Below, piece by piece: positions 3,355-7,354 of a stretch of DNA of 62,909 bases. Location of the stretch: positions 1-62,909 of the forward strand of contig CAJWCP010000004.1 of the NCBI GenBank assembly GCA_913031595.1. The letters are read 5' to 3'. The stretch's first letter is position 1. The number at the start of each line of letters is the position of its first letter. Source of the DNA: an uncultured Flavobacteriales bacterium (lineage in GTDB: Bacteria; Bacteroidota; Bacteroidia; Flavobacteriales; BACL11). Below the pieces are notes generated by a model, which searched no databases, was not told the origin of the DNA, and saw nothing but the letters and a program-made list of their open reading frames with translations. The position numbers and the translations under genes were made by a program.

Positions 3355-4929
3355 TTATTTGTTAGACTTTATTCCTTTAAGATATTTAACCAATTCTTCT
3401 TTAACTTTTGGATATAAAAAGAAAAGACCTATCATATTAGGGAAAATAAGAGCTAAAATCATGGCGTCTGAGAACCCCCATACCGCATCCATATTGGCAG
3501 CAGCTCCTATTATAATAAAAAGTAAAAATAAAACTTTATAGGCTAAATCAGAAAACTTACTCTTACCAAACAAATACATCCAGGATTGTAATCCGTAATA
3601 AGACCAAGATATCATAGTAGAAATAGCAAATAAAATAATTGCAATAGTTAGGACAACTGGGAACCAAGGAATCGCATCTGCAAAAGCCATAGAAGTAAGA
3701 ACAGCTCCCTCTACCTTCTGCCCATCAATAATAACATCGCCGCCATATTCAAAAATACCTGCACTATTATACATTATAATCACTAATGCCGTCATTGTAC
3801 AAATAACAACTGTATCTATAAATGGTTCCAAAAGAGCAACAACCCCCTCAGAAGCTGGGTATTTTGTTTTAACAGCTGAATGTGCAATAGATGCTGAACC
3901 TGCTCCTGCCTCATTAGAAAAGGCTGCTCTTTGAAAACCTACAATCATTACTCCAATTAATCCTCCAAATCCTGCCTCCATACTAAATGCATTAGAAAAA
4001 ATAAGCCCAAAAGCATCATCAATATAACTAAAGTTAGAAAAAATAATAAATAAACATGCAAGCACATATATGATAGCCATAAATGGCACCACCTTCTCAG
4101 TAACTGAGGCAATCCTTTTTATTCCACCAATAATTACAATTCCAACTAATATTGCCAAAGCAATACCAATCAAAGTTCCTACACTACCTCCAGTCATCCC
4201 TAACATAGAGGCAATCTGTAAAGCAGCCTGATTAGATTGAGCTGCATTGCCTCCTCCAAAAGAAGCTCCCACACAAAGTATTGCAAAAAGTACCGCCAAT
4301 CCTTTTCCTAATTTCTCATAACCTCCTTCCTTAAGACCTTTGCTCAAATAATACATAGGTCCCCCATACACAGTACCATCTGCGCCAACATCCCTATATC
4401 TTACTCCTAAAGTACATTCTACAAATTTTGTTGACATACCTATAAGCCCACATATAATCATCCAAAATGTAGCACCAGGGCCCCCTAGAGCAATAGCTAA
4501 AGCAACACCAGCAATATTTCCAAGACCTACAGTACCTGAAACTGCAGTAGCTAGAGCCTGGAAATGACTCACCTCACCTTCTTTGCTCTCATCTCTTATA
4601 GTATCTACAATATCACCATCAATAGTCATTTCTGTCTTCCCTGTCCCATGTTCTAACTGATCATATTTTCCTCTAACTGTATTAATCGCTGTAGGAAAAT
4701 GAGTAATATTTACAAAAGAAAAACGAATCGTAAAAAAGAGTGCCCCAAAAACTAATAACAATAATACAAATGGAATACTGATCTCATCAGTAAATGATAT
4801 AGGATATAGAACAATATTTCCCCATGTATCTGCAATTGGCTTAAACCATTCGTTAATACGCTCATCTAAACCTTTTGCTTCTAACATAAAAGGTATTAAT
4901 AAAATAGATATAAGTAATAGTCTTTTCAT
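3355..4929 (-). CDS. Sodium:alanine symporter (AGCS) family protein
   Basis: 524 aa multi-TM; GTVGLGNIAGVALAIALGGPGATFWM, FSNEAGAGSASIAHSAVKTKYP. Confidence 0.93.
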   Translation of the reverse strand: MKRLLLISILLIPFMLEAKGLDERINEWFKPIADTWGNIVLYPISFTDEISIPFVLLLLVFGALFFTIRFSFVNITHFPTAINTVRGKYDQLEHGTGKTEMTIDGDIVDTIRDESKEGEVSHFQALATAVSGTVGLGNIAGVALAIALGGPGATFWMIICGLIGMSTKFVECTLGVRYRDVGADGTVYGGPMYYLSKGLKEGGYEKLGKGLAVLFAILCVGASFGGGNAAQSNQAALQIASMLGMTGGSVGTLIGIALAILVGIVIIGGIKRIASVTEKVVPFMAIIYVLACLFIIFSNFSYIDDAFGLIFSNAFSMEAGFGGLIGVMIVGFQRAAFSNEAGAGSASIAHSAVKTKYPASEGVVALLEPFIDTVVICTMTALVIIMYNSAGIFEYGGDVIIDGQKVEGAVLTSMAFADAIPWFPVVLTIAIILFAISTMISWSYYGLQSWMYLFGKSKFSDLAYKVLFLLFIIIGAAANMDAVWGFSDAMILALIFPNMIGLFFLYPKVKEELVKYLKGIKSNK

Positions 4930-5030: not shown

Positions 5031-5933
5031 TTAAGAATTTTTCAATTGTTTATCAACTATAGATAAAGCCTCTTTAAAGCTATGGGGTTTATAACCAAGT
5101 ATCTTTTTAGCTTTATCTAAAATAAAGCCTGTTTTAGGAGGTCTAGCAGCCTTTTGATTGAGAGTGCTAGTACTAATTCTATTTAGCTTATTTACATTAT
5201 AACCATAATAATTAGCAATATTTTCAACCATTTCATAAATACTCATAATATCTTTTCCTGATATGTGAAAGATGCCATGCGCTTTCTTTCTAGCTACTAA
5301 AAGACAAGCTTCCGCTAAATCTTCGGCAAGTGTTGGGGCACGAAATTGATCATCAATAATATTTAACTTTTCTTCTTTTTCTAAAGCCCCTTTTGCCCAA
5401 AGCACAATATTTCCTTTACTAAGATTCTCTCCCACACCAAACACAATAATAGTTCTAAGAATTGTCCAGTCTACATTATGATTATATAATATCTTCTCAG
5501 ATTTTAATTTAGAAAGACCATAATATGAAATAGGATTAGGCGTATCATCCTCACCATAAGGACCATCTAGACCGTCAAAAATGAAATCAGTTGAAATATG
5601 TATCAAATGTGCATTTATACTTGCACAGCTATTCGCTAGAAAGGAAACCGCATCAACATTAATCCTATCACATGATTCTTTTTCTTCTTCACATAAATCT
5701 ACATTAGTCATAGCAGCAGTATTAATAACAATATCAGGAGACTGATCAGATATAATCTTTTTTACCTCATTCTCAGATGTAACATCTAAAGAAAGATATG
5801 TGTATTTTTGACTCCTACTGAGTCTGTTCTCTCCTTTAGAAGTTGCAATAACTTCTATATTATCATCTTCAATTAATCTATGTAAAAGCTTTTGCCCTAA
5901 CAATCCATTACTACCTGTAATCAATATCTTCAT
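5031..5933 (-). CDS. SDR / dTDP-4-dehydrorhamnose reductase (RmlD-like) family
   Basis: 300 aa; MKILITGSNGLLGQKL Rossmann motif, STDFIFDG, YYGLSKLKSE. Confidence 0.85.
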   Translation of the reverse strand: MKILITGSNGLLGQKLLHRLIEDDNIEVIATSKGENRLSRSQKYTYLSLDVTSENEVKKIISDQSPDIVINTAAMTNVDLCEEEKESCDRINVDAVSFLANSCASINAHLIHISTDFIFDGLDGPYGEDDTPNPISYYGLSKLKSEKILYNHNVDWTILRTIIVFGVGENLSKGNIVLWAKGALEKEEKLNIIDDQFRAPTLAEDLAEACLLVARKKAHGIFHISGKDIMSIYEMVENIANYYGYNVNKLNRISTSTLNQKAARPPKTGFILDKAKKILGYKPHSFKEALSIVDKQLKNS

Positions 5934-6097
5934 TAATACTGACTAGGTTTTATTAAATACAATAAGAAATATAAAAGAAGTGGAGATCCAAACCCAAACA
6001 GTAAAGCAGCAATAAAAATAATTCTTAAACCACTCACATCAAGATCAAACCTTTCTGAAAGCCAAGAACAAACTCCAAGCATTTTTCGTTTACTCAT
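5933..6097 (-). CDS. PspC domain protein, 54 aa (absent from supplied ORF track)
   Basis: Translated by hand: MSKRKMLGVCSWLSERFDLDVSGLRIIFIAALLFGFGSPLLLYFLLYLIKPSQY; stop overlaps next ATG (TAATG) and its start overlaps the upstream ORF end. Confidence 0.85.
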   Translation of the reverse strand: MSKRKMLGVCSWLSERFDLDVSGLRIIFIAALLFGFGSPLLLYFLLYLIKPSQY

Positions 6098-6308
6098 CTT
6101 TTCTTAATCGAATTAATTGCTCAATCTTATCAAGTATAACCTCTTCAAGACCCATAATAGAATCTTCTACTTTTAAAATCTGTTTCTCCAACTCAATAAT
6201 TTTATCTTGTTTCTTCTTAGATTTTTGAATATCAATAATAAGCCACGCAAAAGCTACTAACTCTATAACTAATAATAATATGGTAAGTATAAGTTGAAGA
6301 TTATCCAT
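6090..6308 (-). CDS. Small membrane protein: N-terminal TM helix plus coiled coil, PspB-like architecture
   Basis: 72 aa MDNLQLILTILLLVIELVAFAWLIIDIQKSKKKQDKIIELEKQILKVEDSIMGLEEV...; sandwiched between two PspC-like genes. Confidence 0.7.
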   Translation of the reverse strand: MDNLQLILTILLLVIELVAFAWLIIDIQKSKKKQDKIIELEKQILKVEDSIMGLEEVILDKIEQLIRLRKDE

Positions 6309-6310
6309 TT

Positions 6311-6532
6311 TTACAAATCAAATACACTTCTACGTTTTTTATATCTGAGATAATCTCTTAACTTCAATGAGAATAACATACACAAATATATTAAAATAGT
6401 GATAGTATTAGTAAAGGTTGCATAAATAAAGAACAATCGAATAAAAGAAGTTTTAATACCTATTCTAGCACTCCACCAGGCACTAACACCAAAAATCTGC
6501 TTTTCAAAAATATTCCTTAAAAAACTTATCAT
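6311..6532 (-). CDS. PspC-like domain protein
   Basis: 73 aa; IFGVSAWWSARIGIKTSFIRLFFIYATFTNTITILIYLCM resembles the PspC core. Confidence 0.75.
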   Translation of the reverse strand: MISFLRNIFEKQIFGVSAWWSARIGIKTSFIRLFFIYATFTNTITILIYLCMLFSLKLRDYLRYKKRRSVFDL

Positions 6533-6535
6533 AAA

Positions 6536-7354
6536 CTAACCCTTATACTTCAACAAAATTTTTTGCATCTGCTCCTGTATTTTACTTGCTTCCTCTCTAG
6601 ATTTATCTGCAAAATCAATATCCGATCCAGCATAAATTATAGACCTTGAAGAATTAACCAACAAACCACAATCTTTATTCATAGCAAAAGTAGCAACCTG
6701 CTCTAAATCTCCCCCCTGAGCTCCAACACCAGGCACTAATAAGAAATGATTTGGGATTATATTTCTAATTTTTTCTAATTCTCTGGTCCTAGTTGCCCCA
6801 ACAACATACATCATATTATTCTCAGAACCTAATTTTGCAGATACTTCTAACACATGTTCAAAAAACTTTTTTCCATACTTATCTTCTAAATGTTGAAAAT
6901 CTAAACTACCATTATTAGAGGTAAGTGCTAAAAGAATCACCCACTTCCCTTTAAATTCTAAAAAAGGATGTATAGAATCTGAACCCATATATGGAGACAC
7001 AGTAATAGAATCAAAATCTAAAGTTTCAAAGAAAGTCTTAGCATACATATTAGAAGTGTTTCCTATATCTCCTCTTTTAGCGTCAGCAATAGTAAAAATA
7101 TCATGAGGAATATAATCTAAAGTCTTCTTAAGAGATTGCCAGCCTTTCTCCCCTAAACTTTCATAAAAAGCAATATTAGGCTTATATGCCACACATAAAT
7201 CCTTAGTAGCATCTATTATCTTCTTGTTAAATTCAAAAACTGGATCTTCAAATCTTAAAAGATGATTGGGAATTTTAGAGATATCTGTATCTAAACCTAT
7301 ACATAAAAAAGATTCTTTAAGTCGTATCTGATCTATAAGTTCTTTTCTAGTCAT
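6536..7354 (-). CDS. pyrF: Orotidine-5'-phosphate decarboxylase
   Basis: 272 aa; FCIGLDTD-like start, [16 protein letters not shown] active-site motif. Confidence 0.95.

Follow-up and report, generated by a model that had tools for sequence, protein, structure and literature searches.

Comparative evidence that a three-gene PspC locus in Flavobacteriales is probably a channel-less derivative of a PspC/potassium channel cassette found across Bacteroidia

Comparison of gene neighborhoods strongly supports the view that three small adjoining genes of an uncultured marine Flavobacteriales bacterium are a shrunken, channel-less derivative of a class-wide cassette with the order PspC73–2TM-RCK channel–PspC54–rmlD; this conclusion concerns the anatomy and history of the locus. 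The window, that is, the whole stretch of DNA that was analyzed, comprises 62,909 nucleotides. The three open reading frames (ORFs) that the initial annotation had placed between pyrF and an RmlD-like gene were found there, on the minus strand. In the order of transcription, the locus reads as follows:

6536..7354, minus strand: pyrF, the upstream neighbor in the same apparent operon (ORF list and synteny)
6311..6532, minus strand: PspC73 gene (73 aa), encoding a small, divergent PspC-family protein with the C-terminal tail SVFDL
6090..6308, minus strand: 72-aa gene, encoding a predicted single-pass membrane protein with a cytoplasmic coiled coil, in the slot of the K+ channel
5933..6097, minus strand: PspC54 gene (54 aa), encoding a minimal PspC-domain protein
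5031..5933, minus strand: RmlD-like dehydratase/reductase gene, the constant downstream neighbor of the cassette (ORF list)

From pyrF to the RmlD-like gene, the successive junctions are operon-like (3 bp, 2 bp, an 8-bp overlap, and a 1-bp overlap), and locus comparison showed that the RmlD-like gene also lies 3′ of the cassette across the order and in many Bacteroidia genomes. The triad occurred with the same genes in the same order in 21 genomes of the window's family and in one genome of a second family, indicating more than a chance arrangement. When dN/dS was calculated by the Nei-Gojobori method for the closest pairs of relatives, the values were 0.05–0.15 for the PspC73 gene, 0.09–0.33 for the 72-aa gene, and 0.06–0.15 for the PspC54 gene, similar to those of rfbD and pyrF (0.12–0.20), and third codon positions were the most variable in the close-pair comparison. 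All three small ORFs are genes under purifying selection. This includes the 54-aa ORF, proposed as a gene by the initial annotation, which is constrained rather than evolving neutrally with a ratio near 1. In many family members, pyrF and the cassette are separated by a DUF218-type gene encoded on the opposite strand (L074:4748-5491, L077:1834-2586, and others); the window does not have it.

The 54-aa protein had been called a second PspC, and this was confirmed by its score against the Pfam PspC model (PF04024) of 43.7 bits, above the cut-off of 25. For the 73-aa protein, described as PspC-like, the outcome was mixed: the window's own sequence scored 22.3 bits, below the same cut-off, whereas several of its orthologues scored 26–29 bits and the arginine characteristic of PspC is invariant, so that it is best regarded as a divergent member of the PspC family on sequence grounds. 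This arginine, reported as conserved in PspC in the text of Ravi et al. 2024 (PMC11237479), lies between two hydrophobic helices, at R32 in PspC73 and R25 in PspC54, and is invariant in both. Neither protein reached the cut-off of the NCBIfam PspC equivalog TIGR02978 (35 and 19 bits against 104 bits), suggesting that they are PspC-domain proteins rather than equivalogs of proteobacterial PspC. In the alignments, PspC54 conserved G8, V9, C10, W12, R25, and Y43, and PspC73 was invariant over the order at V16, R32, F35, I36, Y37, F40, Y49, F54, S69, and F71, together with its C-terminal tail. The tail pattern [S/T][V/I][F/W]D[L/I] was found at the C-terminus of most PspC73 orthologues that adjoin a channel; it reads SVFDL in the order and often SVWDL, SIWDL, or TIWDI in other orders (A3; L214-L242).

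Across the class Bacteroidia, the usual gene order was DUF2851–PspC73–2TM-RCK channel–(PspC54)–rmlD. The slot was occupied in related families by a protein of approximately 340 aa in which Ion_trans_2, TrkA_N, and TrkA_C all exceeded their cut-offs, identifying it as a 2TM-RCK potassium channel. PspC73 was located directly 5′ of the channel at all 32 loci examined in the window's order, and of the 28 best loci found in other orders of Bacteroidia, 20 had a PspC gene in this position; PspC54 followed the channel in only part of the cassette loci. The initial annotation had suggested that the triad could be a minimal standalone complex of the PspB/PspC type. The neighborhood survey points instead to a cassette that has lost its K+ channel, and a reduced pspBC operon is likewise ruled out by comparative anatomy, which is that of a PspC/K+ channel/PspC cassette minus the channel.

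Among the 52 genomes of the window's family that were searched, the channel was represented by one intact copy (G009) and one decaying copy (G020), and the 72-aa gene was present in 34. The gap between PspC73 and the channel in G009 is only 3 bp and contains no relic. The G020 channel (L078:3137-3530) contains stops and is shortened, with both flanking PspC genes intact. In each of the 32 family genomes in which the flanks of the 72-aa gene were read, the next gene downstream was PspC54 or, in its absence, rmlD; PspC73 was directly upstream of the 72-aa gene in 27, and the exact triad of the window occurred in 21. Several lineages had the 72-aa gene without PspC73, and two genomes (G006 and G012) had the PspC genes with an empty slot between them. 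None of the 52 genomes carried the channel and the 72-aa gene together, a result that is not significant alone because approximately 1.3 such genomes are expected from 34 and 2 carriers. The family is a natural deletion series, with an intact channel, a decaying channel, a 72-aa substitute, and an empty slot. In G012 (L082:2227-3500), DUF2851 is apparently fragmented, and it is missing from many family members.

Other families add to this picture. In the second family (f9), the 72-aa gene was in the slot in one genome (G098) and elsewhere in five, of which three carried the channel in the slot and two had an empty slot. In a third family (f7), five genomes contained an open frame of 168–173 codons in which a part resembling the 72-aa protein is followed by the last ~100 residues of the channel; no PspC was found in these five genomes. 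Two of the fusions were read out (170 and 161 aa), giving a TrkA_C match of 45 bits at the channel's locus, before rmlD. The fusion copies at L079:4493-5005 and L089:1680-2165 combine a homologue of the 72-aa protein with TrkA_C and have no pore or TrkA_N. In a tree built from prfA, pyrF, and rfbD, in which several rows covered less than half of the columns, the channel-bearing genomes G009 and G020 fell inside the window's family and the channel-bearing families fell outside it. This topology is compatible with an ancestor that carried both genes, followed by differential loss, and also with repeated replacement. An earlier species tree was set aside because it was distorted by its inclusion of the AGCS gene, of which two types occur at that locus. 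This AGCS sodium:alanine symporter gene, at positions 3355-4929 of the window beside rmlD and also present in related loci (for example, L074 and L075), occurs in two length classes (~502 aa and 515–553 aa) that alternate at one locus across the family. The tandem arrangement PspC73–72 aa–channel was found in none of the approximately 300 genomes of the order.

The 72-aa protein, with 60–74% identity over two families, was examined in an alignment of 22 relatives, which contained 13 invariant columns, including E16, A19, F20, W22, L23, and I24 in the transmembrane (TM) helix. AlphaFold2 predicted a single helix over residues 2–71 (mean pLDDT, 90). The conserved TM residues are concentrated on one face, an arrangement that was as strong in 51 of 5000 shuffles. 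The basic stretch KSKKK that follows the TM helix suggests, by the positive-inside rule, a cytoplasmic C-terminus. No Pfam or NCBIfam model exceeded its cut-off for this protein, Pfam returned no Ion_trans_2 or TrkA match in the window's copy, and its profile matched no solved structure. It is one uninterrupted helix in which the pore loop, selectivity filter, and RCK domain of a 2TM-RCK channel are absent. A holin was also considered and rejected (NCBIfam holin_LLH, 18 bits against a cut-off of 34.75), as was a defense system, for which PADLOC gave only a chance-level match of 13 bits.

The protein had been described as PspB-like in size and architecture. The size and the layout of a TM helix followed by a further helical part do agree with PspB, but homology found no such agreement: Pfam PspB (PF06667) gave 11.4 bits for the window's protein, under the cut-off of 25.6, and BLASTP against E. 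coli PspB produced no alignment at E ≤ 100. Sub-threshold PspB matches did appear in 7 of the 22 relatives (best E, 0.0079), as might be expected if the triad were a minimal membrane stress complex of the PspB/PspC type and the 72-aa protein its true PspB homologue; however, every match was far under the Pfam cut-off, and a eukaryotic OST subunit model, that is, an unrelated TM/coil family, matched 20 of the 22, indicating that weak scores of the PspB type reflect a generic TM-plus-coil make-up. Synteny, moreover, ties the 72-aa gene to the K+ channel and not to psp genes. Identity with PspB was rejected on the basis of the Pfam score, the 22 relatives, and the E. coli comparison, a complex built on a true PspB homologue is very improbable, and the 72-aa protein appears to be a separate family, not PspB by any test run.

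Where this family came from may be read in several ways. The 72-aa protein could be a pore-less remnant of the channel that kept the inner helix (TM2) and the linker helix and lost TM1, the selectivity filter, and RCK_N, with TrkA_C also kept in the fusion family. Profile-profile alignment places its TM helix without gaps on channel TM2 with a score of 21.8, a value reached by none of 200 locally shuffled channel profiles (maximum, 18.7), by the reversed profile (11.7), or by an unrelated transporter (10.7), and the gene shares the channel's slot while its homologue is fused to the C-terminal domain of the same channel. On the other hand, hhalign assigned a probability of 3–5% over 24 columns, TM helices can resemble one another by convergence, and the occurrence of an intact channel alongside the 72-aa gene in some genomes requires a prior duplication or a separate origin. 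We treat descent from the channel as suggested rather than demonstrated, and as an explanation of the protein we consider it unlikely. A more specific proposal, slightly less probable still, is that the channel gene shrank in place to the inner helix and linker and was strongly selected because the product still assembled with the flanking PspC. If true, such shrinkage would expose a membrane complex of PspC and a K+ channel, connecting the sensing of envelope stress to ion flux throughout the class. The stronger variant, in which the 72-aa protein with its buried glutamate would be a minimal ion-conducting bundle replacing the channel, is even less supported. Alternatively, the 72-aa gene may once have been a gene of its own, immediately 5′ of the channel gene and encoding an accessory subunit (PspC73–72 aa–channel–PspC54); either gene was then lost in different lineages, and in the fusion family a deletion joined the 72-aa gene to TrkA_C. 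The nesting of the channel within a family in which the 72-aa gene predominates, the coexistence of both genes in three genomes of the sister family, and the fusion itself, in which the 72-aa homologue precedes TrkA_C in the order expected from such a deletion, all favor this route, but the tandem arrangement that it presupposes is absent among the ~300 genomes and the G009 junction holds no trace of it, making it distinctly unlikely.

As a working hypothesis for the biochemical function of the triad, we propose a PspA-independent, channel-less derivative of the PspC/K+ channel cassette in which the 72-aa protein takes the channel's place in a complex with the PspC pair; we give this reading a little less than an even chance. 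The absence of pspA, already remarked in the initial annotation, held in a wider sample: PspA/IM30 was above the cut-off in none of 37 family members, namely the window's genome (77% complete) and 36 sampled relatives, with one sub-threshold partial match (G019) not counted. The window's genome keeps a TrkA-like protein, indicating that K+ handling has not been wholly lost. The flanking PspC genes persist after loss of the channel in nearly all of the family, and the slot is held by the 72-aa gene. In the proposed scheme, its product would stand in structurally for the channel, joining both PspC proteins in a complex of the inner membrane, and would self-associate through its coil and its one conserved TM face. 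The putative complex may sense or buffer stress on the membrane or the ion gradient independently of PspA and PspF, and the three proteins may together form a membrane complex that stands alone, as first suggested. Against it, G006, G012, G076, and G084 retain both PspC genes side by side, suggesting that in these lineages PspC can do without the 72-aa protein; conversely, its occurrence without PspC73 in several lineages, or away from the slot in three second-family genomes, suggests that it can act away from PspC. The constancy of the gene order may be due simply to membership in one operon. Alternatively, the genes may be functionally unrelated passengers in the pyrF–rmlD operon, their order carrying no functional meaning, as the tight linkage with housekeeping genes and the independent loss of PspC, channel, and 72-aa gene in some lineages would allow. 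However, PspC and the channel remain neighbors across the order and in a large part of the class, and neither in-slot replacement nor fusion to a channel domain would be expected of passengers, so that we regard this as improbable.

To our knowledge, few partners of PspC are known outside the proteobacteria. That PspC is conserved in an operonic pair with a 2TM-RCK channel in much of Bacteroidia, most of which have no PspA, points to a specific candidate partner, and the pairing is testable because the family provides a natural deletion series and a related family provides a TrkA_C fusion. The main texts of Ravi et al. 2024 (PMC11237479) and Popp et al. 2022 (PMC9239133) describe PspA-free PspC networks in Bacteroidota and other groups and PspB as rare outside proteobacteria; a term search of these main texts returned no PspC beside a 2TM-RCK channel in Bacteroidota, and the lone "potassium channel" passage in PMC11237479 concerns a different, PspA-type operon. 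Literature searches on PspC with K+ channel, PspC with TrkA, and DUF2851, which left most subscription journals outside their reach, likewise found nothing on the pairing, which we provisionally regard as new.

With respect to known systems, the locus resembles the PspA-free PspC systems (PMC11237479 and PMC9239133) in having PspC without PspA. Both small proteins retain the invariant arginine and the Gly-Val/aromatic core of the PspC family (PF04024; E. coli PspC), but at 54 and 73 aa they are smaller than E. coli PspC (119 aa), have no counterpart of its cytoplasmic C-terminal region, and, unlike it, have no PspA or PspB partner that could be found; PspC73 differs further in its own SV[FW]DL tail and, in the window, in its sub-cut-off score. 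The 72-aa protein shares with PspB (PF06667) one N-terminal TM helix, a helical cytoplasmic part, and a length of approximately 72 aa, but it has an invariant glutamate in the TM helix, whereas the TM stretch of E. coli PspB contains no acidic residue. To the 2TM-RCK channels (Ion_trans_2/TrkA_N/TrkA_C) it is linked by the position of its gene and by the homologue joined to the channel's TrkA_C; unlike them, it dispenses with pore loop, filter, and RCK domain.
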